A stretch of 64,000 nt of DNA from Pedobacter cryoconitis. GTDB taxonomy: Bacteria; Bacteroidota; Bacteroidia; Sphingobacteriales; Sphingobacteriaceae. A model generated the notes under the pieces. That model saw only the letters and a program-made list of their open reading frames with translations, made no database searches and was not told the DNA's origin. A program made the translations under genes and the position numbers. Positions 2,074 to 60,132 of the stretch are shown here, piece after piece. Position 1 is the stretch's first letter. Each line of letters starts with the position of its first letter. The DNA lies in assembly GCF_014200595.1 (NCBI RefSeq), contig NZ_JACHCG010000001.1:992001-1056000 (forward strand), read 5' to 3'.

Positions 2074-3051
2074 ATGTTAAAAGAACTAGAAAAGCTGGCT
2101 GCCTTTATAGGTAATACGCCTCTTATTGAATTGAAAAACAACGATGCCAATCTATTTGCGAAGTTAGAATACAATAACTTCTCTGGCAGCTCGAAGGACA
2201 GAGCTGCATTCAGTATTATTTATAACGGTATTAAATCAGGGAAAATTTCAGAAAATACTACAATTATTGCATCCAGCTCAGGCAATCTTGCTATTGCTGT
2301 AGCATCCATCTGCAAAAGATTGAAATTACGGTTCGTTCCTGTAATCGATCCGAATATTAATTCATCTTACGAAACATTGCTCAACCTGATGTCTCACCGT
2401 GTGGTCAAAGTGACTGAGCGGGATCATACAGGCGGTTATCTTTTGACCAGGATTAACGTGGTTAACGAACTACATGCAGTCACACCCGATTCTTTTATAG
2501 CAGATCAGTACGGTGACCCCAATAATTATAAAGGCTATTACGGGCTTGGAGAAGAAATTATTTCCTCTTTTGAAGAGCTGGACTATATTTTTGTTGCTGT
2601 AAGTTCCAGCGGTGCCATCACTGGTATTTCAGATTTCATCAAAAAGAACAAACCGGAAGTGAAAATTGTAGGCGTTGATGTAGAAGGTTCCGTCATCTTC
2701 AGTGACAAACCTGTTAAACGCTATATCTCAGGCATAGGCGCAAGTCAGATCCCTCCGATCATGGAAAATGCAATCATTGATGATGTGGTAATTATGTCTC
2801 AAATGAGTATTATCAGAGGATGTACTGAACTGCTGAATGAGCAGGCAATTTTTGCCGGGGCATCATCCGGAGCGGTTTATCTGGCTGCTAAAAACTATTT
2901 CAGATTTAATGATATCGAAGAATCAAAGGCTACCTCTCTGTTAATTTTTCCAGATAAAGGCCATACCTATTTAGATACCATTTATAACGAAGAATGGGGT
3001 AACCAATTGGCTGCCAAATTAAATGAAGAAGTTCTTTCCACTAATTTTTAA
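2074..3051 (+). CDS. SbnA-like N-(2-amino-2-carboxyethyl)-L-glutamate synthase (Dap pathway step 1)
   Basis: This 325-residue PLP enzyme belongs to the cysteine-synthase fold. GNTPLIEL is at 13-20, the PLP lysine K41 is in SGSSKDR, the substrate loop SSSGNL is at 67-72, and the phosphate-binding SSSGAITG is at 177-184. The length and the GIGASQIPPI stretch match the SbnA subgroup more than CysK. In staphyloferrin B biosynthesis SbnA joins O-phospho-L-serine and L-glutamate, and the product is cleaved by SbnB to L-2,3-diaminopropionate. The SbnB-like gene starts 17 bp downstream, which strengthens the call. The expected role is supply of Dap to the NRPS that follows. A plain cysteine synthase is less likely given the partner gene. 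Confidence 0.85.
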   Translation: MLKELEKLAAFIGNTPLIELKNNDANLFAKLEYNNFSGSSKDRAAFSIIYNGIKSGKISENTTIIASSSGNLAIAVASICKRLKLRFVPVIDPNINSSYETLLNLMSHRVVKVTERDHTGGYLLTRINVVNELHAVTPDSFIADQYGDPNNYKGYYGLGEEIISSFEELDYIFVAVSSSGAITGISDFIKKNKPEVKIVGVDVEGSVIFSDKPVKRYISGIGASQIPPIMENAIIDDVVIMSQMSIIRGCTELLNEQAIFAGASSGAVYLAAKNYFRFNDIEESKATSLLIFPDKGHTYLDTIYNEEWGNQLAAKLNEEVLSTNF

Positions 3052-3068
3052 GCTGTAAAATAGAAATC

Positions 3069-4040
3069 ATGTTATATCTGAATGCAAATAATATCAATGA
3101 GATTGGTTTTAATTGGGAACAATTAACAGCAGTAATTAAGGATGCCGTCATACAACTTCACGCAAATGATTATTCACAGCCAATTAAACCATATTTGAGA
3201 TTTGGAGATCCTAAAAACAGGATTATTGCGATGCCAGCATATATCGGCGGGAAAACTCCCTGGGCTGGAATTAAGTGGATTGCCAGTTTTCCTGATAATA
3301 TTTATAAGAATAAGCTCAGAGCAAATTCTGTGACTATTTTGAATGAGCATGATTCGGGAATACCACGTTGTATTATTAACACAGCTACAGTAAGTGCAAT
3401 CAGAACTGCGGCTGTATCTGGTCTGGTAGTCAAAGAATTTCTAAAAGGATGGACCAGTGACCGTAAATTAATCATTGGGATTAACGGTTTTGGCCCTATA
3501 GGTCAGATGCACCTGAGAATGATTACTTCAATTTTAGGAAATCAGATTGATAAAGTTCTGATCCACGATCTCAATCCAATTGATAGAAATACTATTTTAA
3601 GTGAGGTTCAGGATAAAGTATCAGTTGCCGCAAATTGGGAAGAAAGTTATCAGGAAGCAGATATATTTATAACCTGCACAGTTTCTGATGCGCCATATAT
3701 TAATATCTCCCCTAAAAAAGGCTCTCTCCAGCTCAACGTATCTCTGAGAGATTATACTGTTGACATGAAAGATTTTATGGATATTATCATCGTTGATAAC
3801 TGGGAAGAAGTTTGCAGGCAGAATACTGATATTGAAAACATGCATAAAGAAAAAGGGCTGCTGGAAAGTGATACACTGACGATAGCCGAAATAATCAATA
3901 AAGGCATTTTGGAAAAAAGATCAGCTGCGGCTGTGGTGATGTTCAACCCAATGGGGATGGCTATTTTTGATATTGCAGTAGGAGGGTATTATTACCACGA
4001 AGCAATACATCAGAATATGGGTTTTCCTCTGCCGGATTAA
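3069..4040 (+). CDS. SbnB-like ACEGA dehydrogenase, ornithine cyclodeaminase family (Dap pathway step 2)
   Basis: This 323-residue protein has the ornithine cyclodeaminase / mu-crystallin fold. A conserved GIKW lies at about 67-70 and IRTAAVSG at 111-118. A Rossmann nucleotide loop GINGFGPIG is at 137-145. In the staphyloferrin B pathway SbnB uses NAD to split N-(2-amino-2-carboxyethyl)-L-glutamate oxidatively into L-2,3-diaminopropionate and 2-oxoglutarate. It follows the SbnA-like gene by 17 bp, so the two are surely co-transcribed. The pair makes a complete Dap route right before the NRPS genes. On its own the family could be an ornithine cyclodeaminase or alanine dehydrogenase; the call rests on the pairing. 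A strong stem-loop follows the stop codon. Confidence 0.82.
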   Translation: MLYLNANNINEIGFNWEQLTAVIKDAVIQLHANDYSQPIKPYLRFGDPKNRIIAMPAYIGGKTPWAGIKWIASFPDNIYKNKLRANSVTILNEHDSGIPRCIINTATVSAIRTAAVSGLVVKEFLKGWTSDRKLIIGINGFGPIGQMHLRMITSILGNQIDKVLIHDLNPIDRNTILSEVQDKVSVAANWEESYQEADIFITCTVSDAPYINISPKKGSLQLNVSLRDYTVDMKDFMDIIIVDNWEEVCRQNTDIENMHKEKGLLESDTLTIAEIINKGILEKRSAAAVVMFNPMGMAIFDIAVGGYYYHEAIHQNMGFPLPD

Positions 4041-4046
4041 TCATAT

Positions 4047-4090: not shown

Positions 4091-4132
4091 AAACCTATTC
4101 AAAAATGTCTCTCATTCATTTACTTCCTAAAC

Positions 4133-4213: not shown

Positions 4214-4269
4214 ATGCTAACTGTCTTTATAAACCCTGAACAGTTGCACTCTAAAATTACCCGTAAATT

Positions 4270-7200
4270 ATGTCAATTAATAAATCTCCGCTTCACCCAG
4301 CACAAAAAGATGTTTATCTGGACCAATTGATAAACGTAAGTAATCCTTATTATAATATCGGAGGGTATACCAGGATTATAGGGCCATTGATCAAAGCCAC
4401 ATTCATTGCCGCAGTCAACTCAGTACCTGAAGTATTTGATGCTTACCGGATGAGGTTTGATATTGATGAACATACACCTCAAATCTATTTTGACCATTCA
4501 TACCAGCAGCTGGAAATCAAAGAACTTGATTACAGCATGTATAAAGATGGAGAAGAGCTATTGCAGGTTTGGATGAAAGAGCAGTTCAGCAAACCATTTG
4601 AAATTAAAAAAGATAATGTCCTTTTTGAACATTACCTGGTTAAATTAAAAGACGAAGAACATTTATATTTCTATAGATATCATCATTTGATATCTGATGG
4701 ATTCGGTTTGTCCTCACAAAACCGTTATATAGCTAAAAAATATAGTGCATTAATCAATAATGAAGACGTAGATTTCACTTATCTCTCTTATCAGGACGAA
4801 GCTGTAAAAGCGGACAACTATTATCATTCTGATGAATATGCGGAAGAAGGAAAGTACTGGAAAGATAAGATTGAGAAAAAACCGCAGCAACTATTACAAA
4901 GAAGGTTTTTAGACAGCAGTCAGGAGCAAAGGAGAAGTGAAACTGTAGTAGTAAACCTGTCACCAGAAGATATTACGCTGCTTGAAGACTTGCAGAAAAA
5001 AACAAAATCGAGTATTCAACAGCTGACCATTGCTGCCCTGATGATCTATTTTGGCAAGACCTCTGATAAGCAGGACTTCATTTTTGGTACTCCCTTACAT
5101 AAAAGAAAAAATAAAAAAGTTCGTGATATCGTCGGAATGTTTACTGGTATTCTTCCTTTTAAAGGAGTCTATCAGCCAGACCTTTCTGTCGATGAACTGA
5201 TTAAACATATTACGACTTCTCAACGGGAAGATTACCGGTATAGTAATTATCAGATAGGGGATTTAAGTCGTTATTTCAAAATAAATGCAGCAGAAGAATA
5301 CCTGCTGGAAGTAGTAATCAACTACGCGATTATTGATTTTGCACTCGATTTTGGAGAAGGCATGCAAGCCGGATTTTATGAACTTCCGAGTGGTTATGGC
5401 CGTTATCCGATTGAGATCTGGTGGAAAGATTACGGGAAGCAGCAGCCTTTACAGTTAAGTATTGATTATCAGCTCCAGTTTTTCTCCGCTGAGGAAATGG
5501 AGCTGGTTGCACATCGGCTTTTGTTTATTCTGAAACAATTTAGTACACAGCTGGATCATAAATCAAGTGCAATAGAAATCATCCCTCCATCGGAATTACA
5601 GTTAATGGAGCATTTCAATGACGTAAATGTTCCTTATCCGGATACAAAGAATCTGGTAGAGATCTTCACCGGGCACGTCTTCGCAACACCTGAGAAAATT
5701 GCGCTACAATTAGAAAATCAGCAATACAGCTATAAAGAACTCAATGAAAAGGCTAATCAGCTGGCACATGAGCTTCAGGCAAAGGGCGTAACTACCGACA
5801 CCCTGGTTCCGGTATGTTTTGACCGCTCGCTGGATATGGTTGTTGCTATTTTGGGGATCATGAAGGCTGGTGCTGCTTATGTACCAATTGATCCGGGGTA
5901 TCCTGAAGACAGGATCAGCTATATGCTGGAAGATACAGGGGCAAAAATAGTGGTCACAACCTCTGCATTGGCAGAAAAATTTAATACTGTTGAACTGATT
6001 CAGCTTGATGCTGACAAGGAAGCTATTGAAACACAATCGCTTCTTAATCCGGAAAATAAGATCCACGCAAGTGATATGTCTTATGTGATTTATACTTCAG
6101 GATCTACAGGTAAACCCAAAGGGGTAATGGTAGAGCATGGAGGAATGTTGAATCACCTGTATGCAAAAGTCAATGATCTGGAACTCAATAGTAGTTCTAT
6201 TGTTGCTTTTACAGCTTCCTATACTTTTGATATCTCTGTATGGCAATTGTTTTCTGCCATGTTATGTGGTGGAACGACCATTATTTATACTTCCGCGCTT
6301 ATTCTGCAACCCACTGAACTGATCCGTGCAATTGACAAAGATAAAGTTACGATCTGGGAAGTGGTGCCTTCTTATCTTGCTGCGGTATTGCAGGAACAGT
6401 TTGTTGCGTCATTAACTGCCCTAAAATATCTGCTGGTTACAGGTGAAGCGGTAAGCCAGCCGGTATTGGCGCAGTGGTTTGAACACGCTTTTTATGGCAG
6501 GATTCCGGTAGTTAATGCTTACGGGCCAACAGAAGCATCAGATGATATTTGTCATTACATGATGCACGATACCCCGGTAAGCACGAATGTGCCACTGGGA
6601 TCGCCCATACAAAACACGCAATTATATATCGTTGACAATGACATGCAGTTATGCCCGATTGGAGTACCGGGTGAAATTGGTGTTTCTGGTATTTGTGTGT
6701 CAAGGGGTTATTTGAACCGTCCTGAGCTGACCGCAGAAAAATTTATTAAACACCCTTTTGATCCCAATTCAGAGTACCGCATGTACCGTACCGGTGATCT
6801 TGGCCGGTGGCTGCCTGATGGTAATATTGAATATCTTGGCCGTATTGATGACCAGGTTAAAATCAGGGGTTTCCGTATTGAACTGGGTGAAATCGAAGCT
6901 GCATTACAACAATGCGATGAAGTTATCCAGGCAGTGGTTTTGGTGAAAACAGACGATAATGGTCATAAGCGTTTAGTTGGTTATGTGGTCGTAAACAGTG
7001 ATTTCGATAAAGAACGTGTGGTATTACGTCTGAAAGAAAAACTGCCTGAATACATGATCCCAACTTTCTTTATAGAGATGGACAGTTTGCCATTGACAGC
7101 TAATGGTAAAGTAGACAAAAAAGCATTACCAGATCCTGACGCAGCAGCTTTGCTAACTACAGCTTATGTAGCACCAAGAAATGAAACAGAGCAGGAACTG

Positions 7201-8840
7201 GCGAATATCTGGCAGGATTTGCTGGGTGTACAGCGTGTAGGTATCTATGATAATTTCTTTGAACTGGGGGGGGATTCAATTACAACAATACAGGTGTCAA
7301 GCCGTGCAAGAAGAGCTGGAATCAGCCTGCAACCACGGGACTTGTTTATGAATTACACCATTTCCTCCCTTTCTACTTTATTAGCTTTACAAGTCGTTTC
7401 AACTGCACAGGCTGCACAGGAATTTTTGACTGTCAGCAGTGGTTTACTACCGGTACAACAGCATTTCTTTGAAGCGCAGACTGAAGATTTTTCGCATTAC
7501 AATCAACATCTGCTATTAAAGGTAGCTAAACAAATCAGTCAGGAAAAATTAGCGGCAGCTATCAACGAACTGGTAAAATATCATGATGCGCTGCGTTTCT
7601 ATTATCACAGGAAACAGGAGCAGACTGCACAGGTTTATGGTAATTATGAAGTATTGCTTGAAACAGCGGACTTTTCAGGATCGGCCGGAGATTTAGCGTT
7701 GATTACTGCTGATTACCAGCAGGGCTTAAATCTGGAAAAAGGTATTCTAATGCGTGCTGTGTTTTTGCAGACGCCTGCAAATGAATCACATCACCGCTTA
7801 TTGTTAGTGGTTCATCACCTTGCCATTGATGGGGTGTCATGGCGTATTTTGCTTGATGACCTTACCCTGCTTTTAGAACAGCAGGAAACCAGATCTCTTC
7901 AGGAAATTGCAGGTGATAAAACGAGTGCATATTATCAGTGGTATAATGCATTAAAAGCATATGGTCAGGAACAACGGTTGTTAAATCAGTTGCCTTATTG
8001 GGAAAATTCAGTACAGCAGTATATACCGCTGCGTACCAATAAAGATACCCAACTAATAGCAAGCACAGTTGATACTGGTACTTTTAAAGTAAGCCTGAAT
8101 AAAAAACATACGAAACAATTACTGCAAGAAGTTTCCCAGGCTTATTATACGGAGATCAACGATATATTACTCACTGCGCTTGCCATTACGCTTTCGGACT
8201 GGAACGATAACCAGAAAGTTTCCATCGGTTTAGAAGGTCATGGACGTGAAGATATTTCAGAACAAATAGACACCAGTCATACTACAGGCTGGTTTACCAG
8301 TTTATACCCGGTTTTACTGGACGTCAAAAAAGGTACAAATACAGGTTTTATCCTGAAAAATATAAAAGAACAATTAAGACAGGTTCCGGAAAAAGGAATT
8401 GGTTTTGGGGTATTGAAATATCTCAATAAAGCTGATTCTTTGCAAACCCGTGATCCATGGGATATTGTATTTAACTATTTGGGTAAACTGGATAATAGTG
8501 TGAACGATGATGCGGTAATTAGTCCGTTATGGGAAACATTTGCGCTTTCGGCTTCCGCTGATTATCCTTTAAGAGAGAAAATAGCTGTAAATGCGATTAT
8601 CAGACAAGGTGTATTGGAAATTCAATGGGATTATAGTACGCTTCATTTTAATAAAAAGAGTGTAAAAGAGCTTGCAACGGCTTTTGTTGCTGCGCTGGAA
8701 GAAATTATTATTCACTGTGTGGCTCAGAAAGCACCATCGCATACCCCGGCAGATTATGAAATGGGAGAGGTGATCAGTGTGGCCGAACTGGATGAATTCC
8801 TGGCAGAAACTATAAATGGTTCACCAAGAAAAGACCAGAT
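4270..8840 (+). other. NRPS module 1: Cs-A-T-E, diamino acid (Dap or Dab), D-configured
   Basis: The starter C domain presumably N-acylates the first residue with a fatty acid; no acyl ligase gene is in the window. The A domain has YTSGSTG near residue 608 and FDISVW near 653. Pocket residues read against GrsA numbering are D-I-W-E-V-G-A-D-D-K. Acidic residues at 278, 330 and 331 suit a side-chain amine, as in the Dab-type codes I recall. The neighbouring Dap genes favour Dap. The E domain has HHLAIDG near 1182 and EGHGRE. Confidence 0.7.
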
Positions 8841-48700: not shown

Positions 48701-51700
48701 TAAACCGTGCTGCGGTAATTACAGGTACTGATTCATTAAGTTATCGTGAACTGAATGAGCAATCTTCACGTTTTGCGCATTATCTGCGTAAAAAAGGCGT
48801 AACCAAAGGTACTTTAGTCCCGGTTTGTCAGGAAAGATCAGCGGGTATTATAGTGACCATGCTGGCTATTATGAAGGCAGGCGGTGCTTATGTCCCTATC
48901 GATCCGGGGTATCCGGCAGAACGTATTCAATATATGCTGGCAGATACAGCAGCAAATTTATTGATCTGTAATGCTAAAATAGCAGCCAGTCTGGGTGTCG
49001 TTGAAGGTCTTGAAATCATTAATCCTGAGAGTTTTACGGATGAACTTAAACAGTATCCTGTAACAGCTCCTCTGATCCATATTGAGCTGCATGATTTAGT
49101 CTATGTAATTTATACTTCTGGTTCTACAGGACAGCCTAAAGGGGTTCAGATTACACATGCAGGGCTTTCCAATCTGATTAACTGGCATCATGAACGTTAC
49201 CATCTGACCAGGGATAGTAGAACTACTACAGCGGCGGGGGTTGGTTTTGATGCTTTTGGATGGGAAGTGTGGCCAACATTAAGTACCGGAGCAGCGCTTT
49301 ATGTGGTGGATGACGAACAAAGATTATCGCCATCAGCTCTTGCTGATTATTATATCGGACAGGGTATCACACACAGTTTCCTTTCTACAGTCCTGATTCC
49401 TGAGTTTATTGAGGCCAGCAGAAACCGTGAATCTGCCTTAAAATACCTGCTTGCAGGGGGAGATAAACTGGCTGCTGTGAATATGGAGGGTTTAACTTAC
49501 AAAATTATCAATAACTACGGCCCTACAGAAAATAGTGTCGTTACTACCAGTTATGAACTTTCACCGGCCTATGCTGAGACCGCGCCTCCAATTGGAATCC
49601 CGGTTAGTCATACACAGATTTATATTTTAAATGCTGCAAACGGGATCAGCCCTGTTGGTGTGCCTGGTGAACTTTGTATCAGTGGGGCAGGTCTTGCAAC
49701 CGGTTATCTGAACCGGGAATCACTAACTGCGGAGAAATTCGTGTCAAACCCGTTTAATACAAATTACGGAGGCCGGATGTACCGGAGCGGAGACCTTGCG
49801 CGCTGGTTACCAGATGGTAATATTGAATACCTTGGCCGCATTGATGATCAGGTTAAAATTCGTGGTTACCGCATAGAATTAGGGGAAATCGAAAATGTAT
49901 TACAGCAAAATGCAGCGGTGAAGCATGCGGTGGTCTTAGTCAAATCTGATGATCGCGGGCATAAACAACTGGTAGGTTATATCGTGGCTGAAGGTTCTTT
50001 TGATAAAGGAGAGCTGATTGCTTATCTGAAAGACCGTTTACCGGATTATATGGTTCCTGCATTGTGGGTGTCACTGGATCAGCTACCGTTAACCAGCAAT
50101 GGTAAGGTAGACAAGAAAATGTTGCCTGAGCCGGATATCAGCACATTGCTGACCAATAGTTATGAATCACCGCGTAATGCGACAGAAAAAGCACTGGTAG
50201 AAATCTGGCAGGACTTGCTTCGTTTGGAGCAGGTTGGTATTCATGATAATTTCTTTGAACTGGGTGGGGACTCGATCATTACGATACAGGCAGTGAGCAG
50301 GGCCAAAAGAGCTGGTTATGAATTCCAGCCGAAGGATTTATTTGTACACCAGACTATTGCCGGGTTATCTAAATTATTACAAGAAAGAGAACACCTTGTT
50401 TCTTACGCGGAAGAGGGCTTTTTAAGTGGGACAAGTGGATTGTTACCTATTCAGCAATGGTACTTTGAGTTGGAAACACCTTCGGTATCACACTTTAATC
50501 AGCACGTGCTTTTAACAGTCTCCAAGCAGATCGCGGTAACTATAATCTCTGATTCGATCTTGCAGCTGGCTGATTACCATGATGCTTTAAGGTTTACTTA
50601 TCTTAAAAAAGAAGACCATTGGGAACAGGAGTACGGAACCTATACCGGAGCATTGGAAACAATAGACCTGAGCGCGCTGGCCACAGCTGATGTACCTGCT
50701 GCGATTAAACAAGCTGGTGAAATTGCACAACGCAGTCTGGATATTGAACAGGGAATTATTTTCCGTTCCATCTTGTTTTTAACCCCTGGAGAAGATCAGG
50801 ATAACCGTTTATTATTGGTTGTTCATCACCTTGCAGTAGATGGTGTTTCATGGCGGATTTTACTCGAAGATCTTGGACTGCTGATTAAAGAGCCGGGTAA
50901 AAAGGCGGTGGCAGTTCTGGGCAGTAAAAGTGCTTCGTACCGTCAATGGTATACCGCGCTGGAAGGATATGGACAGACGATTTCCAAACAGCACGCTTAC
51001 TGGATGGATATTGTTAAACATTATGTTGCATTACCTGAAGACCATAATTATACAGGACATTTGACACTGGCAGATATGGGCACCAAAGTAACCCGGCTGA
51101 ATAGTGCAGCTACTCAGCGCTTACTGCAAGAAGTACCACAAGCTTATCATACAGAAATCAATGATATTCTTTTATGTGCACTGGCGCTGGCTTTATCCCA
51201 GTGGAGTGGTATTTCCCGGATATCCGTTGGACTGGAAGGACACGGCCGGGAAGATATTATGGCTGGTATTGATACCAGTCGTACGGTAGGCTGGTTTACG
51301 AACCTGTATCCTGTATCGCTTGAAACAGAAACAGGCAGGGATATTGGTTATGCACTGAGATCCATTAAAGAACAATTAAGGAAAATACCAGCAAAAGGAA
51401 TAGGCTTTGGGGTATTGAAATACATAGAGAAATTAGTTGCACTGCAACAGAAAAGTGCATGGAATGTGGTGTTCAACTATCTTGGACAGCTGGATAATAT
51501 GGTGAGTGAACAGGGAGAAATTGGTATGGCCAATGAGCAGGCTGGCGACAGTGTTGCAGACGATTATCCATTAACTGATCAATTATCCGTAAATACGATG
51601 ATCCAGGGTGGTGAATTATTGCTGGACTGGAGTTATAGTACCAGGCATTACGATGTGGCCAGTATCGATAAGCTAGCTGACTTGTATATGGAGAACTTGC

Positions 51701-54700
51701 AAAATCTGATCGGCCATTGTGCGGAACAGGTTTTACCGGCCTTTACTCCGTTTGATTATGGTTTAAATGGCTTGGTTACGGTAAATGAGCTGGATAAATT
51801 CCTGGACGAAGCTTACCTGGGTAAGCCACGAAGGGCACAACTGGAAAGTATTTACCGTTTAGGCGGTTTACAGGAAGGGATGTTATTCCATGAGTTGTAC
51901 AATGAACAAGGTGCATTTACAGAACAGCTTTCCTGCGATCTGATGACCCTGCAAACGGATAAGTTTATCCGCAGCTGGGAAATTCTGATCAAGCAACATA
52001 GTATTTTAAGAACAGGTTTCTACCATGATGCGTTCTCTATACCTGTACAATGCGTTTATAGAGAGGTTTCCCTTTCGGTAAATCTGCTTGACTACCGTGG
52101 TCTGAGTCCAGCAGCTCAGGAACAGGCTATACAGGAATATGAGCATAGAGATCGTATCCAGGGGTTTGATCTGAAAGCAGCCCCATTGATGCGGATCTGT
52201 CTGATACAACTTTCGGATGTGCATTACAGAATGCTTTGGAGTTTCCACCATATTCTGCTGGATGGCTGGTCGGTTCCGGTCTTGTTAGCTGAACTGTTTG
52301 CTAATTACGAACAACTGGAAGCGGGGAAACCGATAGAAGAACAACCAGCAGATCGCTATGAAGACTATATCCGTTATATAGCACAGCAGGATAAAGATCA
52401 AACCGCAGCTTACTGGCGTAATTATCTGGCGCCTGCCGAAGAAGGATGTTTACTTCCTTTTGTTAGTGCAACGGCAGATCGTACCCGTGGTGTGGGTATG
52501 AAAGAAGGAATAATTAAGTTCGATGCTGCATTGACCGGGCTGATTTCAAACTATGCGAAACAACAGCATTTAACAGTTAATTCATTGATGCAGGGTGTAT
52601 GGGCATATCTTTTATACAGATATACCGGTCGGGCTGATGTCATTTATGGGGTTACTGTATCCGGACGTCCTGAAGATTTGCCGGGTATTGAAAGAAAAGT
52701 GGGGATGTATATCAATACATTACCTCTTTATATCAACTTAGATCAATCGGCAGATATCAATAGCTGGCTGCAAAAAATACAACAAGGGCAACTGGAAAGC
52801 AGGGAGTATCAATATACTACGCTGAATGATATTCAGCGGCTGACAAGTATCAAAGGCGATCTTTTTGATACCTCTATTGTTTTCCAGAATTATCCTGTCA
52901 GCGAATCTGATCTGCAAAAAGGCGGAGGACTTGAAGTGAGTGATATTGTTGTACATCCGCAAACCAATTATCCACTCACAATTAACGTGATTACAGGAAG
53001 AGAAACTAATCTGCTGTTTGTTCACAATGAGGAATTACTGGATACAACGGCTGTGGATATGATGATGGGGCATTTCAAACAAGTGCTGCTGCAACTGGTA
53101 GAAAAAGGAGTGAAAACCTGGAAAGAAGTCGAACTGATGACTGCTCAGGAGCAGGAGCAGTTGCTGGTTACTTTTAACAATAAAATAGTTGCTTATCCTG
53201 ATACGCAGACACTGGTTGATTTGTTATTGCAACAAGCAGCGCTTACGCCTGATGCGCCGGCAATTGTGTTTGAAAACACGATCTGGTCTTACCGAAAGCT
53301 GGATGAGGCTTCGGGGAAACTGGCTAATTACCTGCGTAGTAAAGGCGTGAAAACTGATATGCTGGTTCCAATTTATCTGGAAAGGTCGGCCGAAATGGTG
53401 GTTGCTATTCTGGGTGTAATGAAGGCAGGAGGTGCTTATGTGCCGCTTGATACGACCTATCCGGCAGAAAGGATCAGTTATATATTAAAAGATACTTCGG
53501 CTGCAATCGTGATCACTACCGGAGATATAAGTGAGCGGATTTATACGGTATCAGATGTGCCGCTGGTTTTACTTGATCAGGATATTGCAGTGATTAAAAG
53601 GTATCCGTCTGCTATCGCAGCTGGAGAGATAAAACCTGGGGATCTGGCTTATGTTATTTATACCTCAGGTTCTACCGGACAGCCAAAAGGGGTAATGGTA
53701 GAACATGCTGGTATGCTGAATCACCTGTATGCCAAAGTTAATGATTTGCACCTTAATGCAGAGAGTGTGGTTGCTTTTACAGCTTCTTATACTTTTGATA
53801 TTTCGGTATGGCAGATCTTCTCCGGGCTGTTAAGCGGAGGACATACGATTATTTATCCTTCACAATTGCTGCTGCAACCGGCGGCATTGCTTGAAAAAGT
53901 GGAAGAAAACGGGGTAACCATTTTAGAACTGGTTCCTTCTTATCTGACTGCTGTGCTGCGGGAAGAGCTGACAACTAAGCTGGAGAAACTGCAATATCTG
54001 CTGGTTACCGGTGAAGCAGTCAGCCAGCCATTGCTTGCACAATGGTTTGGACATCCTGATTTTGGACGTATCCCGGTAGTGAATGCTTATGGGCCTACAG
54101 AGGCTTCGGATGACATTTGTCACTATATAATGTACGAAACTCCTGTTCAGATCAATATACCACTGGGTAGTCCGATACAGAATTTACAGGTATATGTGCT
54201 GAATGATGAGCTGAATCTTTGTCCGGTAGGGGTGACTGGCGAAATTTGTGTTGCTGGTATAGGTGTTTCCAGAGGTTATTTAAACCGGGCTGATCTGACT
54301 GCCGCGAAGTTTATTAAAAATCCATTTAATGCAGACAGTAAAATGTACCGGACAGGTGATCTTGGCCGCTGGCTGGCTGATGGAAATATCGAATACCTTG
54401 GCCGTATTGATGATCAGGTAAAAGTCCGCGGGTTTAGAATTGAGCTTGGAGAGATTGAAAATGTCCTGCAACAATATGAAGAGATCAATCAGGCAGTTGT
54501 TGTGGTTAAAGACGACGCAAACGGAAATAAACGTCTGGTAGCTTATCTGGCTGTAAACCCGGCATACCATAAGGATTCAATGCTGAACTGGTTAAAAGGA
54601 GTTTTACCGGAATATATGGTGCCTTCGTTCTTTATCACGCTCGAAGAACTTCCATTAACACCTAACGGAAAGATAGACAAAAAAGCGCTGCCTGATCCGG

Positions 54701-55833
54701 ATACCAATGAGCTGCTGGCTACAGCTTATGTAGCTCCCCGTAATCATTTACAAGGAGAACTGGCAGAGATCTGGCAAAATATGCTGGGCATCCCAAGAAT
54801 CGGTATTTATGATAATTTCTTTGAGCTTGGCGGGCTTTCATTGCTGGTGATTGGTTTGGTTTCTGTGATCAAAAAGGAAATTGGTGTCAAAGTTCATGTC
54901 AAAGATATTTTCAATTATCCAACCATACATGAGCTTGCTGAAGTCATTAATCTGCGTACAGAAGATCCCGATATAGCAATACAGCCTGATGCACAGCTAT
55001 ATAGTGATCATGTCGTCTTATTAAATGATGGCCCGCTTTCATTTCCTGTATTTATGCTGCCGGGAGCGGCTGGGGTTTGTGAGGTGTACAGTGCTTTAGG
55101 GCAGTCGCTTAATGAAACCTGTGCCCTTTATGGATTGCAGATGCCGGGGGTATTTGAAGGAGAGGCTCCTGAACATGAGCTGTCAGTGATTGCTGCCCGT
55201 AATATTGGATGGATGAAAGAAGTACAGCCTGTTGGCCCGTACCGTTTTATCGGGCACTCACTGGGAGGAATCATGATTCACGAAATGACCAAACAGCTGG
55301 AAGCTGCCGGAGAACAGGTACAGACAGGGATTATTCTGGATAAAGACACCACTACGGAAAGTTCATTTCATGGAGGCGATGACAATGGGGAAACCCTTTT
55401 CAGGCTGGCCATGCTGGTATTTGAACTGGGAAATATCGTAACTAAACCTTATCCTGAATGGATCTGGAAGCTGAAAGAGGGATTTTCTTTAGCAGACAGA
55501 GAAGAAATAATGCCGGTAATTACTTCAATTGTGATGGAGAATCTTGGAAATAACAAGCATTATACCAGCTTTATTTTAAGGATACTGAACCTGGTGATCA
55601 GCAATGCTTTTCTGGAATATACAGTTAAGGAGCAGATTAATGCAAGCCTTTTAATTGTAAAAGCTGAACAGACGCCATGGGAGGAAAATAGCGGAAGCCT
55701 GGGCTGGGAAGCCTTTGCAACTGCAACGCAGGTTATTACTGTGCCGGGGGATCACGATTCACTGGTAGGAAATGATAACGTACAGGTATTGGGAGCTGAA
55801 TTAACAGCGTACTTGCAACAATTTAAGGGATAG
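37912..55833 (+). CDS. NRPS, modules 9-12 with docking domain and terminal thioesterase
   Basis: A 17.9-kb frame encodes 5973 residues in the order docking-C-A-T-E / C-A-T-E / C-A-T-E / C-A-T-TE. Residues 1 to about 55 form a TubC-type (beta-hairpin) docking domain ending in a KLRKEHLITYFKK-like helix. Phosphopantetheine serines are near 1078, 2604, 4121 and 5643. The thioesterase (about 5700-5973) has GHSLGG with the nucleophile near 5783 and a GDHDSL histidine near 5948, so it can release the chain by hydrolysis or cyclisation. The first C domain is of LCL type, fitting an L-residue from module 8. It follows the first NRPS gene by 33 bp and precedes an ABC exporter gene by 61 bp. Confidence 0.95.
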   Translation: MSSFNLIDVVELLNKANNVGIKITLDDDRLKIKMRKDQVIDSSLLEELKLRKEHLITYFKKHSAATVIADENKIVPFERGTIKHIPLSSGQERLWFLDQLEGSTAYHIPTVLRLKGKLDQGALEFALNGIVNRHEVLRTVILGEDGKPYQHILPENKWKLVVLDDLIYKSSPEALRAGIKELTDAPFNLAADHMLRAYLIVLGADEYVLLVTMHHIASDGWSTGIIVNELIEFYNASTEKRQVQLPVLEIQYADYAVWQREQVSPQVEKFHLDYWKKKLNGVATLFLPADYPRPAVQSSRGAVSEFSFDLALAEKLQTLSRSHDATLFMTLLTAFKVLLYRYTGQDDICVGTPTAGRTQQELEGLVGFFVNTLALRSDLGDNPTFEALLQQVKDTTLNAYQHQDLPLEKIVEAVVKERDLSRNPLFQVCFTLLNIPGDGDLKLQDVELSAEPMEQTKIQFDFTLTLRETENGLSGAVEYSTDLYREETISRMVGHFELLLRAIVANPVTRICDLEMLSTTEEQLLLSFNETAVDHELEPGTTLLDAFAIQVEYAPDAIAVVFEEHSLSYKELDERANQLAHYLIVKGVTTETLVPICLGRSLEMIIGIFGILKAGAAYVPIDPDYPASRISYILEDTAASVIITDGNSKPKLPPLADHIEVIALDEEWHEIGAHVKGPVSTSLAAENLAYVIYTSGSTGKPKGVLIEHNGVVNLAMSQRNALRLTYGTRFLQFASFGFDASCYEVFNTLLSGGVLVLPKKEDLLSAESFGAMVKRHQVEVVTLPPSYQHLVKDVLGPVTTVVSAGEPLNREDARYIKAKGIRVINAYGPTENTVCTSLTDEPILENNTVVIGKPIENVQVYIQGEQGRLCPVGVAGELCVGGPGVARGYLKRPELTAEKFIPDTYLPKPGARLYRTGDLARWLPNGHIEYLGRIDDQVKIRGFRIEPGEIEAELQLCELVNAAVIAVKPDQNGNNRLVGYIIPEGSFDREGIVAYLKDKLPDYMIPSILLPLETIPLTPNGKIDRKALPEPTDVIVSVNDYVAPRNPMEQTLTAIWQDLLGVSKVGIHDNFFELGGDSIITIQVVSRSKRAGYDLNPKDLFIYQTVEKLAALLLARKSNEVTAEQGQLVGTAGLLPIQQWFFEATGPNPSHFNQQVLLSIDKAIEPAILIAAVEQLVTYHDALRFAYKAGSHGWEQTYGQHAGALKIVDLQELPASQLLEEITAVCELTQRSLDIEQGILFSAVLIQTPETDAHHRLLFVGHHLVVDGVSWRILLEDIGLLMEHPDQQASIVLGHKSSSYRQWHSALVDYGQRRRLTCQQDYWEKVTAAYHPLKTEKEEKGIVTIADTVNHTATLNSEATRSLLQDTNRAYHTEINDLLLSALALTLAEWNGHGQVSIGLEGHGREDILKDIDTSRTVGWFTSLFPVLLEVEENQDHGSLLKAVKEQLRQVPDKGIGYGVLKYINKTAALQGAEPWDIIFNYLGQMDNAVHAEEALDAAVENTGTAIDEAYPVRENLSVNSVIQGGALLVTWTYSNKHFTAEGISRLAEQYMSHLEELIGHCASQMHVSYTPADYNLSGLVTNGELDNFLEEDFNGTPRRMQLESMYRLSGLQEGMLFHSIYDGQASAYVEQFTGELTELNVPAFLQSWQYLLAHHSILRSGFYYDVFSVPVQCVYHEVELPVTMLDYRHLDEKTQKQAIQEFEANAKLNGFDFTAAPLMRITLTRLEDNRYRLLWNFHHMLLDGWSSPVLLEKLLLAYEALAAGNPLPVIAKDNYEDYIRYTERRDQEEEELYWRGYLKGISEGCLLPFVSTTINRNKGIGEYREQPLVLNAAFSAQLARFAQRHRVTVNTLMQGVWAYLLYRYTGRPDVVYGVTVSGRPEDLPGVERAVGMYINTLPLYTVIDGSAGIIQWLQELQISQLQSREYQHTPLNVTQKWAMVEGDLFDSLLVFENYPVSKVVSDSSDNVELQNAEMREQTNYPLSLIVSSGAVINVVLSYNSTLLEDNYVTAIAAHLEQVLKQILVHETGTLADIELLTVAEQEQLLKTFNHTETAYPQDQTAIGIFEAQVLLYPSSPALVFEDIVYTYQELNERSNQLAGYLRSKGVVTDVLVPVCLARSAEMAIAILGVLKAGGAYVPIDPGYPEDRIAFMLEDTSASVVITTSDLKTSIAAFASADTVLLDTEREKISTWAISRPLNPAGPGDLAYVIYTSGSTGKPKGVMVEHAGMLNHLYAKINDLQLTAETVVAFTASYTFDISVWQLFSALLCGGKTVIYSSERILEPAILIDAVEADGITILELVPSYLNAVLQEHTLAHLNKLSYLLVTGEAVSQPLLAQWFAHPHYGRIPVVNAYGPTEASDDICHHIMYETPSRINVPVGKPVQNMRIYILSASDQLCPVGVPGEICVAGIGVSRGYLNRSELTASRFVDTPFETKGKMYRTGDLGRWLPDGTVEYLGRIDDQVKIRGFRIELGEIENVLQQHEAIVQAAVIVKTDESGNKRLVAYVVAEGVFDREATVSWLKNHLPEYMVPGLFVAMDELPLTGNGKIDRKGLPDPDMGTLQTGVYTAPRNEQETILAEIWQELLHIPKVGIYDNFFELGGDSIITIQVVSRARRAGFSLHPRDLFVHQTIAGLSVCLLTAAETASSGEQGLLDGESGLLPIQQHYFESGAAEISHYNQDVLLSIDKSVTTETVSSAISQLVAAHDVLRFTYTQTADGWKQAYGNYAGALEINDLRQVSSEDLPAVIAANNNQYQSSLDLKAGIVLRTVLLLTPDTEEKNRLLIIVHHLAVDVVSWRILLEDLELLLAKEALPAYKTASYRQWYRSLETYGARHAVQQQRRYWETAVAAARPMRTVNAWSGTLTGGDIEQHTVTLDAVLTRQLLQEVPRAYHTVVNDVLLTALALTLAKWNDHNQVVIGLEGHGREDFIPGVDISRTVGWFTSLYPVMLSVASDADYGLQLKNVKEQLRQIPDKGLGYGILKYINKADVLQGTDPWEVEFNYLGQLDNLVQEEGNTLLSGATESTGSSAAESHPVRELLSINSLVQGGELRMNWSFSNRHFTPDSIAEIAAAYLENLENLINYAIAVEIPVSTPSDYNLGEEITNEELDKFLDEDYNGASRRLQLESISRLSGLQEGMLFHSLYDDQAGAYSKQFSCELVTPDIDAFVQSWYGILKRHSILRSGFYYNEFKIPVQCVYHEVKIPVEILDCSQLNKTEQEQYIRDYESADLKKGFDFTAAPLMRICFIKLDSERYYMLWSHHHILLDGWSMPIVMEELLTNYENLVSGKPMPVLTPDRYEDYIRYIERQDKEEATSYWRKYLDGLDEASLLPFISNASDRTKSHGGYGEEVFQLDAEFTARLTRYAQQNRVTINTLMQGVWSYLLYSYTGRKDVAFGIVVSGRPENLAGVESAVGMYINTLPLHGRVDLAQDFAAGLQQIQTEQLESRAYQYNSLSEIQRLSGITGDLFDTLMVFENYPVSETLNAQPWKLRVENVSSEEHTNYPLSVIIMAGKQIDIHFSHNNLIGHTYIKAIAHHFKTVLEQIASSVKSLKFGELNLLTTAEEQQILYDFNAKNISLLPTETVVELFAAAAAAQVNRAAVITGTDSLSYRELNEQSSRFAHYLRKKGVTKGTLVPVCQERSAGIIVTMLAIMKAGGAYVPIDPGYPAERIQYMLADTAANLLICNAKIAASLGVVEGLEIINPESFTDELKQYPVTAPLIHIELHDLVYVIYTSGSTGQPKGVQITHAGLSNLINWHHERYHLTRDSRTTTAAGVGFDAFGWEVWPTLSTGAALYVVDDEQRLSPSALADYYIGQGITHSFLSTVLIPEFIEASRNRESALKYLLAGGDKLAAVNMEGLTYKIINNYGPTENSVVTTSYELSPAYAETAPPIGIPVSHTQIYILNAANGISPVGVPGELCISGAGLATGYLNRESLTAEKFVSNPFNTNYGGRMYRSGDLARWLPDGNIEYLGRIDDQVKIRGYRIELGEIENVLQQNAAVKHAVVLVKSDDRGHKQLVGYIVAEGSFDKGELIAYLKDRLPDYMVPALWVSLDQLPLTSNGKVDKKMLPEPDISTLLTNSYESPRNATEKALVEIWQDLLRLEQVGIHDNFFELGGDSIITIQAVSRAKRAGYEFQPKDLFVHQTIAGLSKLLQEREHLVSYAEEGFLSGTSGLLPIQQWYFELETPSVSHFNQHVLLTVSKQIAVTIISDSILQLADYHDALRFTYLKKEDHWEQEYGTYTGALETIDLSALATADVPAAIKQAGEIAQRSLDIEQGIIFRSILFLTPGEDQDNRLLLVVHHLAVDGVSWRILLEDLGLLIKEPGKKAVAVLGSKSASYRQWYTALEGYGQTISKQHAYWMDIVKHYVALPEDHNYTGHLTLADMGTKVTRLNSAATQRLLQEVPQAYHTEINDILLCALALALSQWSGISRISVGLEGHGREDIMAGIDTSRTVGWFTNLYPVSLETETGRDIGYALRSIKEQLRKIPAKGIGFGVLKYIEKLVALQQKSAWNVVFNYLGQLDNMVSEQGEIGMANEQAGDSVADDYPLTDQLSVNTMIQGGELLLDWSYSTRHYDVASIDKLADLYMENLQNLIGHCAEQVLPAFTPFDYGLNGLVTVNELDKFLDEAYLGKPRRAQLESIYRLGGLQEGMLFHELYNEQGAFTEQLSCDLMTLQTDKFIRSWEILIKQHSILRTGFYHDAFSIPVQCVYREVSLSVNLLDYRGLSPAAQEQAIQEYEHRDRIQGFDLKAAPLMRICLIQLSDVHYRMLWSFHHILLDGWSVPVLLAELFANYEQLEAGKPIEEQPADRYEDYIRYIAQQDKDQTAAYWRNYLAPAEEGCLLPFVSATADRTRGVGMKEGIIKFDAALTGLISNYAKQQHLTVNSLMQGVWAYLLYRYTGRADVIYGVTVSGRPEDLPGIERKVGMYINTLPLYINLDQSADINSWLQKIQQGQLESREYQYTTLNDIQRLTSIKGDLFDTSIVFQNYPVSESDLQKGGGLEVSDIVVHPQTNYPLTINVITGRETNLLFVHNEELLDTTAVDMMMGHFKQVLLQLVEKGVKTWKEVELMTAQEQEQLLVTFNNKIVAYPDTQTLVDLLLQQAALTPDAPAIVFENTIWSYRKLDEASGKLANYLRSKGVKTDMLVPIYLERSAEMVVAILGVMKAGGAYVPLDTTYPAERISYILKDTSAAIVITTGDISERIYTVSDVPLVLLDQDIAVIKRYPSAIAAGEIKPGDLAYVIYTSGSTGQPKGVMVEHAGMLNHLYAKVNDLHLNAESVVAFTASYTFDISVWQIFSGLLSGGHTIIYPSQLLLQPAALLEKVEENGVTILELVPSYLTAVLREELTTKLEKLQYLLVTGEAVSQPLLAQWFGHPDFGRIPVVNAYGPTEASDDICHYIMYETPVQINIPLGSPIQNLQVYVLNDELNLCPVGVTGEICVAGIGVSRGYLNRADLTAAKFIKNPFNADSKMYRTGDLGRWLADGNIEYLGRIDDQVKVRGFRIELGEIENVLQQYEEINQAVVVVKDDANGNKRLVAYLAVNPAYHKDSMLNWLKGVLPEYMVPSFFITLEELPLTPNGKIDKKALPDPDTNELLATAYVAPRNHLQGELAEIWQNMLGIPRIGIYDNFFELGGLSLLVIGLVSVIKKEIGVKVHVKDIFNYPTIHELAEVINLRTEDPDIAIQPDAQLYSDHVVLLNDGPLSFPVFMLPGAAGVCEVYSALGQSLNETCALYGLQMPGVFEGEAPEHELSVIAARNIGWMKEVQPVGPYRFIGHSLGGIMIHEMTKQLEAAGEQVQTGIILDKDTTTESSFHGGDDNGETLFRLAMLVFELGNIVTKPYPEWIWKLKEGFSLADREEIMPVITSIVMENLGNNKHYTSFILRILNLVISNAFLEYTVKEQINASLLIVKAEQTPWEENSGSLGWEAFATATQVITVPGDHDSLVGNDNVQVLGAELTAYLQQFKG
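42721..47280 (+). other. NRPS module 10: C-A-T-E, diamino acid; E domain motif altered
   Basis: The C domain has HHMLLDGWS. The A pocket is D-I-W-E-V-G-A-D-D-K. The E domain retains both histidines (2788-2789), the aspartate (2793) and EGHGRE, but the invariant glycine of HHxxxDG is valine (HHLAVDV, codon GTA at 46291-46293). Whether it still epimerises is uncertain. The next C domain is D-accepting in type, which suggests activity is retained. Confidence 0.7.
44275..45795 (+). repeat. Near-identical A-T tract, copy 2 (module 10)
   Basis: Partner of 31720-33240. The C domains in front of the two copies are of different type (D-accepting here, LCL in module 7), and the E domains behind them have diverged. 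Only the A-T part has been homogenised or moved. Confidence 0.85.
47290..51840 (+). other. NRPS module 11: C-A-T-E, leucine, D-configured
   Basis: The A pocket reads D-A-W-F-L-G-N-V-V-K (leucine), as in module 4, with which it shares FDAFGWE. The C domain has HHHILLDGWS. T serine is near residue 4121 and the E domain has HHLAVDG near 4305 with EGHGRE. Confidence 0.85.
51850..55833 (+). other. NRPS module 12: C-A-T-TE, diamino acid and chain release
   Basis: The C domain has HHILLDGWS. The A pocket is D-I-W-E-V-G-A-D-D-K, but this A domain is more diverged than the module 7/10 pair. The T motif is GGLSLL instead of GGDS or GGHS, with the serine (5643) kept. A single thioesterase follows with GHSLGG. 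With no E domain the last residue should stay L. Confidence 0.75.
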
Positions 55834-55838
55834 GAAGA

Positions 55839-55866
55839 ATATAGCCCGCTGTGAGGCGGGCTATAT
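55839..55866 (+). terminator. GC-rich stem-loop between NRPS and exporter genes
   Basis: Positions 55839-55849 and 55856-55866 are perfect reverse complements (11 bp, GC-rich core) around a 6-nt loop, starting 6 nt after the NRPS stop. No T-run follows, so it may act as a partial terminator, attenuator or mRNA stabiliser rather than a full intrinsic terminator. Confidence 0.5.
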
Positions 55867-55894
55867 CAATAAACAATTTATAAAAGCTTATTAA

Positions 55895-57658
55895 ATGCAG
55901 AATTCTACATCCGTTAAAGATATTAAGGGTAATTCTCTTAAACCATTATTTCGTTTATTCCATTATGTAAAACCATATTGGCTGGAATTTAGCATTGGGC
56001 TGTTCCTGCTGATGATCGCCAGTGTATCCGGCCTGGCGCTGCCTAAGTTGCTTGGACAATTAATTGATGGTGGCAAACAGGGAATAGATTCAGGGGCAAC
56101 GACCTACATTGGGTGGTTGTTATTGGGCATTCTGATTATCCAGGCTATATTCTCTTTTTTCAGAGTGGTACTGTTTGTAAATGTTACCGAAAAAACATTG
56201 GCTGCTTTACGCCAGACTGTATACAGCCACCTGGTGAAAATGCCGATGCGTGTTTTTCTTCACAAACGTGTAGGGGAGCTGAGCAGCAGGATTTCGGCAG
56301 ACATTACGCTATTGCAGGAAATTTTTAACAATACGCTGGCAGAAATGGTCAGACAGCTGGTTATTATCGTTGGTGGTTTGATCTTATTGATGATTACTTC
56401 GTTTCAACTGACAGTTTTTATGTTGCTGTTATTACCTGCTATGGTCGTGCTGGCTGAGGTATTTGGCCGGTTCATCAACAAATACGCGATGGAGGTACAG
56501 GACAAAGTCGCAGCTTCTAATACCATTGTGGAAGAAACATTGCAGGGTATTTTTAGTGTAAAAGCCTTTGTAAGCGAGTTCTTCGAGATAAGCCGTTATC
56601 GCGGGCAAACGAATGAAATGGCCAGACTGGGGATGAAAGGCGGGAAGTACAGAGGTCTGTTTGATTCTTTTGTGATCGTCGGTATTTTTGGTACACTGGT
56701 CGCTGTGATCTGGCGGGGGGTGACTACGGGGGTGGCTTCAGGAGAACTTATTTCCTTTTTACTTTACTCTGTATATATTGCCAGCTCAATTACTGGTTTA
56801 GCAGAAGTTTATACTGCTTTACAGAAAAGTATTGGAGCTACTACCCATCTTTTTGATTTGCTGGAGGAACCGGTAGAACTACTTACAGACTTTAAAACCA
56901 TAGCACCGGAAAATCAATTGCATGGGAAGATTAATTTCAGCAATATCCATTTTCATTACCCCACAAGAGAAGATATCAATGTATTACAGGGCGTATCTTT
57001 CGAAGCTTCTTCCAATCAGAAAGTGGCTATTGTAGGTTCAAGTGGTGCTGGTAAAAGTACAATTGTGTCTTTATTGCTGAGATTGTATGATCCGGTAAAA
57101 GGAGGGGTGTTTTTCGATGATAGAGACAGTGCAGCTATTCCTTTATCAGAGCTCAGGGCACAAATTGCTGTGGTTCCGCAAGATGTTTTTCTTTTTGGCG
57201 GTACGATTGCAGAAAATATCGGCTATGGTAGAAAAGGGGCTTCTAAAGATGAGATTATTGCAGCAGCAGAAATGGCCAATGCCTGGGAATTTATTCAGCG
57301 TTTCCCGCTTGGACTAGAAACAATAGTAGGAGAACGTGGGATACAGCTTTCTGGTGGGCAGCGTCAGCGGATTGCGATTGCACGTGCGGTATTGAAAGCT
57401 CCGCGTATTTTGATATTAGATGAAGCAACGTCTGCATTGGACTCAGAATCAGAGCGGTTGGTACAGGATGCTTTAGATAAACTGATGGAAGGACGTACTT
57501 CTATCGTGATTGCGCATCGCCTGGCTACGGTAAGACAAGCTGATAAAATTATAGTGCTTCATAAAGGGCAGATTGTAGAAGAGGGGACTCACCTTGAACT
57601 GGTTGGCGTTAGCGGAGGGTTATACAAGAACCTGAGTGAAATGCAGTTTACAAACTAA
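55895..57658 (+). CDS. MsbA-like ABC transporter (fused permease and ATPase), probable peptide exporter
   Basis: This 587-residue half-transporter has an N-terminal membrane domain (about 20-320, several hydrophobic helices) fused to an ATPase domain. Walker A GSSGAGKST is at 381-389, the Q-loop glutamine at about 429 (PQD), the signature LSGGQ at 485-489, Walker B ILILDE at 505-510 and the H-loop histidine at 541. It should work as a homodimer in the inner membrane, flipping or exporting a lipophilic substrate. Position right after the NRPS genes on the same strand suggests export of the finished lipopeptide and self-protection. Homologues also flip lipid A, so a housekeeping role cannot be excluded from sequence alone. 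It ends only 4 bp from the convergent kinase gene. Confidence 0.88.
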   Translation: MQNSTSVKDIKGNSLKPLFRLFHYVKPYWLEFSIGLFLLMIASVSGLALPKLLGQLIDGGKQGIDSGATTYIGWLLLGILIIQAIFSFFRVVLFVNVTEKTLAALRQTVYSHLVKMPMRVFLHKRVGELSSRISADITLLQEIFNNTLAEMVRQLVIIVGGLILLMITSFQLTVFMLLLLPAMVVLAEVFGRFINKYAMEVQDKVAASNTIVEETLQGIFSVKAFVSEFFEISRYRGQTNEMARLGMKGGKYRGLFDSFVIVGIFGTLVAVIWRGVTTGVASGELISFLLYSVYIASSITGLAEVYTALQKSIGATTHLFDLLEEPVELLTDFKTIAPENQLHGKINFSNIHFHYPTREDINVLQGVSFEASSNQKVAIVGSSGAGKSTIVSLLLRLYDPVKGGVFFDDRDSAAIPLSELRAQIAVVPQDVFLFGGTIAENIGYGRKGASKDEIIAAAEMANAWEFIQRFPLGLETIVGERGIQLSGGQRQRIAIARAVLKAPRILILDEATSALDSESERLVQDALDKLMEGRTSIVIAHRLATVRQADKIIVLHKGQIVEEGTHLELVGVSGGLYKNLSEMQFTN

Positions 57659-60124: not shown

Positions 60125-60132
60125 TTATAAAA

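Follow-up and report, generated by a model that had tools for sequence, protein, structure and literature searches.

The DNA stretch analysed here (the window), 64,000 nucleotides from the 6.35 Mb genome of Pedobacter cryoconitis, harbors at positions 2074..57658 a gene cluster with a complete two-protein nonribosomal peptide synthetase (NRPS) that in all probability makes an N-acylated, D-rich cationic dodecapeptide which is exported and most likely disturbs membranes. A starter-type condensation (C) domain, 12 collinear modules, nine epimerization (E) domains, a thioesterase (TE), an exporter and genes of the type that make 2,3-diaminopropionate (Dap) are all identifiable in the sequence. 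The predicted product is acyl-D-Dap-D-Val-D-(basic)-D-Leu-D-Asp-L-(hydrophobic)-D-Dap-L-Lys-D-Phe-D-Dap-D-Leu-L-Dap. An earlier note, made from the letters of the window without database searches, had placed a self-contained pathway for a strongly cationic, D-rich acyl-dodecapeptide between the same coordinates; the boundaries are right and the type of product is well supported by the domain order and the pocket codes of the adenylation (A) domains. All positions are in window numbering; G-numbers denote genomes (G000 is the host genome) and L-numbers denote sequence stretches.

Architecture of the assembly line

The synthetase is encoded in two collinear frames of 11202 and 5973 amino acids (aa). 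The domain order, with T for thiolation domains, is C-A-T-E five times, C-A-T, C-A-T-E and C-A-T in the first protein, and C-A-T-E three times followed by C-A-T-TE in the second. Curated families recover in the window 21 domains of the condensation superfamily, which motifs split into 12 C and 9 E, together with 12 AMP-binding and 12 PP-binding domains, and the single TE motif, GHSLGG, lies at the end of NRPS 2. The main features are as follows:

4270..37878, +, NRPS 1, 11202 aa, modules 1-8
4282..5601, +, starter C domain of module 1 (PF00668; in a clade with the first C domains of two other host-genome clusters, support 1.0)
7444..8754, +, E1 (family and motifs, as for all E domains below)
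11986..13308, +, E2
16534..17832, +, E3
21085..22398, +, E4
25639..26934, +, E5
33331..34647, +, E7
37912..55833, +, NRPS 2, 5973 aa, modules 9-12 and TE
41305..42609, +, E9
45889..47160, +, E10, with the variant motif HHLAVDVVSW
50440..51732, +, E11
55063..55833, +, thioesterase, for release or cyclisation (GHSLGG; PDB 4zxh, 1.9e-13)

E domains are thus present in modules 1, 2, 3, 4, 5, 7, 9, 10 and 11 and lacking in modules 6, 8 and 12. The motifs HHxxxDxxSW and EGHGRE are found in all nine E domains and the LGGxS serine in all 12 T domains; the first motif of E10 has Val in place of Gly, a change present in 5 of the 8 Pedobacter clusters of this architecture (see below). With a starter C domain, collinear C-A-T modules and a TE, the locus has the makeup of an NRPS lipopeptide cluster, and judged by sequence the assembly line is intact and conserved across relatives.

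A tree of C and E domains was built from the window cluster, its relative G088 and two further host-genome clusters, which by architecture are of the pedopeptin and cryopeptin types. All four first C domains fall into a single clade, to which the support of 1.0 given above refers. The products of pedopeptin and cryopeptin clusters are both acylated (PMC7979671, PMC12181424), and the first C domain of the window is accordingly placed here among the starter-type domains, which would load an acyl group onto Dap1. The C domains that follow the nine E-containing modules cluster with the C domain following E in the pedopeptin-type cluster, and C7 and C9, each preceded by a module lacking E, are found among the C domains located after L modules of that cluster. 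The tree of C types therefore matches the placement of E, so that the stereochemistry can be read from the E domains and, a second time, from the C domains. The series of domains listed in the earlier note (one starter C, 12 A, 12 T, 9 E and one TE, all collinear) is borne out by family counts, motifs and this tree; its D and L labels follow the placement of E, except that position 10 was left without a label although module 10 has an E domain and is to be read as D. The cryopeptin-type cluster of the host (L051-L052) has five modules with the codes DPELMGAVTK, DAFWMGGTFK, DPEDIGAITK, DAFWMGGTFK and DAELTGAVFK.

Substrate codes and their calibration

Pocket codes were taken from a MAFFT alignment of the A domains:

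5683..6714, +, A1, DIWELTADDK, Dap
10231..11265, +, A2, DAFWLGGTFK, Val
14773..15804, +, A3, DAEHIGEVTK, basic-type pocket, residue not fixed
19327..20355, +, A4, DAWFLGNVVK, Leu
23866..24906, +, A5, DLTKIGHIGK, Asp
28420..29442, +, A6, DAYLIGAVVK, hydrophobic, residue not fixed; module without E
31552..32610, +, A7, DIWELTADDK, Dap
36121..37155, +, A8, DAEDVGEIVK, most likely Lys; module without E
39556..40581, +, A9, DAYTVAAVCK, Phe
44107..45165, +, A10, DIWELTADDK, Dap
48676..49710, +, A11, DAWFLGNVVK, Leu
53230..54282, +, A12, DIWELTADDK, Dap; module without E

The codes were calibrated with two clusters that are collinear with peptides of published structure. One is the pedopeptin-type cluster of the host genome (L049-L050, G000:C1:1098000-1137999), which lies about 48 kb beyond the window and has nine modules with a single E domain after module 7. 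Its codes are DIWEMTADDK, DAYTVAAVCK, DIWQLTADDK, DFWNIGMVHK and DFWNIGMVHK in modules 1-5, and DIWELTADDK, DAWFLGNVVK (with E), DAFWLGGTFK and DLTKIGHIGK in modules 6-9. All nine fit, place by place, the ‘cluster 2’ peptides Dap-Phe-Dab-Dhb-Thr-Dap-Leu-Val-Asp (Dab, 2,4-diaminobutyrate; Dhb, dehydrobutyrine; PMC7947920), with a Thr code standing for Dhb; in the related pedopeptins and isopedopeptins residue 7 is known to be D (PMC7979671). We infer that the host strain makes peptides of the ‘cluster 2’ type. Module 5 of this cluster carries a Thr code, like the ‘cluster 2’ isopedopeptin analogues. The gene behind the NRPS (G000:C1:1135431-1136669) matches the Dab aminotransferase model (dat) with 447.6 bits against a cut-off of 401.6; no dat is found at the window cluster.

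The other calibrator is a cluster with 15 modules and five E domains in G470, from the Chitinophaga genus set (L069-L071, G470:C32). The 15-residue chitinopeptins have an extra Dap, N-methyl-Val, D-Thr, Lys followed by Dap at 9, a variable D-Leu/Ile/Val at 10, Leu at 13 and a terminal hydroxy-Ile, and their D residues are Thr, Ala, Ile, Lys and residue 10 (PMC9248904); the modules and E domains of G470 fit this scheme, the configuration of hydroxy residues lying outside the comparison. In G470, DAEDIGEIVK occurs with an E domain at the D-Lys place and DIWELTADDK at the L-Dap place. The Lys domain of G470 is 50-56% identical to the A3 and A8 domains, and its Dap domain is 60-62% identical to the four Dap domains of the window; among the 12 A domains of the window, the G470 Lys domain most resembles A3 (55%) and A8 (53%), with 46-50% for the others. 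C. eiseniae Ak56 (G145), tried as a Lys calibrator, has a cluster (8 A codes in view) that is not chitinopeptin-like, and G470 was used in its place.

Given both calibrators, DIWELTADDK in the window is read as Dap, DAYTVAAVCK as Phe, DAWFLGNVVK as Leu, DAFWLGGTFK as Val and DLTKIGHIGK as Asp, and A8, whose code agrees in all but one letter with the DAEDIGEIVK found for Lys in the chitinopeptin-type cluster, most likely loads Lys, as the earlier reading of position 8 as Lys-like had it; the resemblance of the A3 pocket to the A8/Lys type suggests a basic residue. The residues read by eye agree with the aligned codes, and the four positions that had been left as Dap or Dab now read Dap. DIWELTADDK and shorter code strings gave no match in open-licence papers. 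The calibrated codes (DIWELTADDK for Dap, DIWQLTADDK for Dab, DAEDIGEIVK for Lys) should aid the reading of other Bacteroidota clusters.

Supply of Dap and export

The synthetase genes are flanked by candidate precursor and export genes, the Dap genes before and the exporter after, as the earlier note had them:

2074..3051, +, sbnA-like gene, putative first step of Dap synthesis (PALP; TIGR03945 346.3 bits, cut-off 349.95; best PDB match SbnA 5d84, 7.8e-65)
3069..4040, +, sbnB-like gene, putatively releasing Dap (TIGR03944 313.6 bits, cut-off 326.9; best PDB match 4m54, 5e-42)
55895..57658, +, MsbA-type ABC exporter (ABC_membrane and ABC_tran; TIGR02204 543.4 bits, below the cut-off of 780.4)

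The structure 4m54 was deposited as a putative ornithine cyclodeaminase, which we take to be SbnB. The two proteins probably work like SbnA and SbnB, making Dap. The exporter follows the TE in all eight Pedobacter clusters, and the sbnA-like gene is likewise present in 8/8; sbnB is in cis in six, and in G014 (G014:C1:2422635-2423603) and G127 (G127:C1:467457-468425) it lies outside the cluster, about 190-200 kb off, so that Dap supply is split in these genomes. An sbnB gene is missing for C. eiseniae too, and sbnA/B are described as an abundant trait of Bacteroidetes clusters (PMC9248904). No acyl-activating gene is seen among the frames of 850-57658, and no MbtH protein was found in the host genome. 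The cluster is thus self-contained as regards Dap-type genes and exporter, but not in these other respects. Elsewhere in the host genome (L053-L057, G000:C3), a very large NRPS locus comes with a separate sbnA/sbnB-like pair (43% and 56% identity to the pair of the window); in this locus a module with the code DAEHIGEVTK follows one with DIWEITADDK.

Predicted product and alternative readings

In the proposed pathway, SbnA/SbnB-like enzymes would supply Dap, the starter C domain would load a fatty acyl chain onto Dap1, and twelve extensions would follow, with a D-(Lys-like) residue 3 and an L-(Leu/Ile/Val-like) residue 6. The TE would then release the chain, with a lactam to the side chain of a diamino residue as the slightly preferred outcome, and the ABC protein would export the peptide. 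Four Dap and two basic residues stand against one Asp. The side chains of Dap are weak bases that are only partly protonated at neutral pH, and the charge at pH 7 is therefore lower than the residue count. Such a peptide most likely disturbs bacterial membranes, by analogy with what is reported for isopedopeptins (PMC7947920). The attack on Gram-negative outer membranes raised in the earlier note would be a possible mode of action, by analogy with pedopeptins and polymyxins.

Several points weigh against this reading. The cluster has no known product, and the effect on membranes, the acyl chain and the type of ring are inferred. The sbnA and sbnB proteins score just under the curated cut-offs given above and so fall formally outside SbnA and SbnB. 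The codes for residues 3 and 6 lack a calibrated counterpart, a Ser-like code (DVWHISLIEK) stands in G470 where Ala would be expected, and the only link of the G470 and pedopeptin-type clusters to their products is collinearity. Finally, with Lys, Orn, Arg or Dab at residues 3 and 8, none of 224 compositions falls within 8 mDa of four published core masses. The last result also bears on the possibility, which we regard as the less probable case though a substantial one, that the product has already been isolated, its structure unsolved, among the uncharacterised Pedobacter cyclic lipopeptides of 1253-1440 Da (clusters 7, 9-11 and 13 of PMC7947920), which occurred in active fractions and whose ring is thought to be closed by an amide. 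The size class, the 2+ to 4+ ions, the peptide-bond ring closure, the C4-C8 acyl or C8-C10 hydroxyacyl chains, two core masses that differ by a Phe/Leu-sized step and producers close to P. cryoconitis or P. lusitanus (PMC7947920) all fit, and allowing Gln at one of residues 3 and 8 brings 10 of 350 compositions into agreement with two of the four cores (2.1 and 6.4 mDa). However, the predicted Lys/Lys/Val6 ring (1286.782) has in common with the published 1286.739 the integer mass alone, and the cores 1244.655 and 1327.653 have no matching composition among the code-limited residue choices. An exact match to the published cores, sought with wide residue choices (best 12 per core) and with code-limited ones, gave none with basic residues at 3 and 8.

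No Ser or Thr is predicted, so that a ring, if any, would have to form through an amide to a diamino side chain or an ester to a hydroxyacyl chain. Amide closure is slightly favored. A linear product, or a lactone to a 3-hydroxyacyl chain as is possible by analogy with pedopeptins, comes not far behind: the starter C domain shares a clade with its pedopeptin-type counterpart, and a lactone would need the acyl chain for want of a hydroxyl residue, but the TE is 34% and 36% identical to the TEs of the host's pedopeptin-type and cryopeptin-type clusters, respectively, and a shared release reaction therefore cannot be assumed. It is quite unlikely that the four DIWELTADDK modules load Dab instead of Dap. 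The two residues are close in size, the host genome does encode a Dab aminotransferase, and similar codes are associated with Dab in Pseudomonas, although no open-licence paper with the strings sought was found. However, in the pedopeptin-type cluster Dab corresponds to DIWQLTADDK and Dap to DIWE(M/L)TADDK, in the chitinopeptin-type cluster Dap corresponds to DIWELTADDK itself, and sbnA/sbnB-like genes adjoin the window cluster whereas dat adjoins the pedopeptin-type one. Hardly any weight can be given to the idea of a decayed or silent relic, against which stand two open giant frames, intact motifs and the same order kept in nine clusters, with domains 46-100% identical to those of the window.

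Distribution, residue variation and copying of A domains

Clusters were sought through the terminal TE, with the best 15 or 29 candidates scored in NRPS-rich genomes, so that the numbers of holders are lower bounds. At least 8 of 145 Pedobacter genomes, the host included, have a TE about 64% or more identical to that of the window on a frame of ~6000 aa; named relatives found through this domain are the P. cryoconitis strains S3M1 and M2T3 and Pedobacter sp. PAMC26386. The domain order is the same in all eight (one spurious motif in G095 being disregarded). Among 399 genomes of the family, at least six match the TE at E < 1e-70, all of them Pedobacter; these six do not include G095 and G134. 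Outside Pedobacter, at least 1 of 79 genomes of the Chitinophaga genus set, G489 (L062-L065), holds a cluster with the same domain order, in which the A domains are 46-84% identical to those of three Pedobacter clusters and the G+C content of the stretch is 52.2% (41.3-48.9% in the Pedobacter stretches). Judged from their N-termini, sbnA/sbnB-like frames follow an exporter-like frame in G489.

Across the nine clusters the residue type is constant at positions 1, 2, 3, 5, 7, 10 and 12 and variable at 4 (in G015 only), 6, 8, 9 and 11. The A domain falls to 48% identity to that of the window at module 6 (G088, G134), 47% at module 11 (G016) and 51-55% at module 9 (G014, G127, G016, G088, G134), whereas in the same modules the C and T domains keep an identity of 59-85%. 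Some of the divergent domains have likely sources in their own cluster: A11 and A8 of G016 are 92% and 93% identical to its own A2 and A3, respectively, and A6 of G088 and G134 is 84-90% identical to A4 and A11 of the same cluster. No in-cluster source was found for the changes at module 9 (best own paralogue 50-65%) or for those in G015. Within G489, the pairs A3/A8, A4/A11 and A7/A10 are 99%, 100% and 97% identical.

The pair A7/A10 is 91-100% identical within each of the nine clusters. Over 450 bases of DNA, the two copies are 88.7-100% identical within each of the eight Pedobacter genomes, in each case more than either shares with the corresponding module of the other seven genomes (70.2-90.7% over all pairs), and they differ at 0 of 150 third codon positions in G095 and at 3-38 in the other Pedobacter genomes; in G489 the DNA identity is 99.1%. 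In the window the shared tract is ~1.8 kb long, and identity drops to 30-70% within ~100 bases at the left end, less evenly at the right:

31468..33238, +, tract common to modules 7 and 10, module 7 copy (most 30-base blocks 90-100% identical, one inner block 66%; ends approximate)
44023..45793, +, tract common to modules 7 and 10, module 10 copy (ends approximate)

We read this pattern as A7 and A10 having been homogenised separately in each lineage, that is, as putative recurrent gene conversion; homogenisation of this kind within assembly lines has been published (PMC9205934), and one further study is reportedly devoted to it. It appears rather likely that these clusters represent a family of D-rich, Dap-rich acyl dodecapeptides in Pedobacter and Chitinophaga with a fixed frame of modules and stereochemistry, in which residues have been rewritten partly by copying of A domains within the cluster (A7/A10 per lineage; elsewhere 2 and 11, 3 and 8, or 4, 6 and 11). 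If this scenario is valid, the family amounts to a natural domain-swap experiment on one scaffold with a putative antibacterial product, and the nine natural variants of one architecture, with visible A-domain exchanges, form a test set for the exchanges tolerated by a working assembly line.

Neighboring genes

Two genes lie upstream of the sbnA-like gene:

850..1476, +, sigma-like protein of the extracytoplasmic function (ECF) type, possible regulator (Sigma70_r4_2 2.1e-8; TIGR02985 69.2 bits, below the cut-off of 126.4)
1523..2023, +, small membrane protein, possibly anti-sigma-like judging by position only (no family match)

The pair (850-2023) is found upstream in 5 of the 8 Pedobacter clusters and may belong to the cluster as a dedicated regulator. 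On the other side, the minus strand of 57663-63233 encodes a tetratricopeptide repeat (TPR) histidine kinase, a MauG-type di-haem peroxidase and a phosphoesterase-family protein, which are probably outside the cluster.

Relation to known lipopeptides

Within a known antibiotic class, the window holds a new Bacteroidota cluster for a cationic lipopeptide, and no assigned product was found for it: searches of the open-licence literature yielded no paper on the 12-residue order or on a Pedobacter dodecapeptide. The cluster is less novel than the earlier note suggested: it is one of nine with the same architecture, and such clusters probably have already appeared in print as the orphan family NRPS-1 (Liu et al. 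2025, PMC12181424), an unassigned multimodular NRPS found in 7 of 15 strains, S3M1 included, and the most conserved of that set. This identification comes through the common strain, P. cryoconitis S3M1, which holds the 12-module cluster (L001/G015) along with other NRPS clusters; according to the same paper, no MIBiG 2.1 reference correlated with its Pedobacter NRPS clusters. At L034-L036 and G015:C1:1361657-1362601, S3M1 also has a second sbnA/sbnB-like pair after the exporter (sbnB seen in part) and, some 27 kb further on, another NRPS thioesterase in a 4592-aa frame. These extra genes are perhaps the ‘fused’ clusters of PMC12181424.

The closest parallels are the pedopeptins and isopedopeptins, which share with the predicted peptide the genus, the starter-type C domain, the Dap code, identical Phe, Leu, Val and Asp codes and the nature of a cationic acyl peptide (PMC7979671, PMC7947920). 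Their assembly line, however, has nine modules with one E domain, compared to 12 with nine in the window, and their peptides contain one Dab, Dhb and Thr or Leu, L Dap residues and a 3-hydroxyacyl lactone; the order Dap-X-Dab-Thr-X-Dap-D-X-Val-Asp that characterizes the family is not that of the window. Pedopeptin-type clusters with a Leu code at module 5 were also seen in G456 and G506 of the Chitinophaga genus set (L072-L076), and this family therefore occurs in both Pedobacter and Chitinophaga. Pedopeptins and isopedopeptins act on Gram-negative bacteria, the latter also on colistin-resistant ones (PMC7947920, PMC9659194), so that a longer, more D-rich relative would be a reasonable, if putative, antibiotic lead.

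Chitinopeptin clusters resemble that of the window in the sbnA-like genes, the ABC transporter and the almost identical codes of the Lys and Dap modules, but their products have 14-15 residues (16 modules in one cluster), hydroxy-Asp and N-methyl-Val, bind iron and are closed as lactones via Thr (PMC9248904). In place of the 14-16 modules, three Asp and ring-closing Thr of that family, the window has 12 modules, one Asp code and no Thr code. Polymyxins differ in containing Dab instead of Dap, in their modules and in coming from another phylum. Like the predicted dodecapeptide, they are cationic acyl peptides rich in diamino acids, and pedopeptins have been compared with them (PMC7947920).

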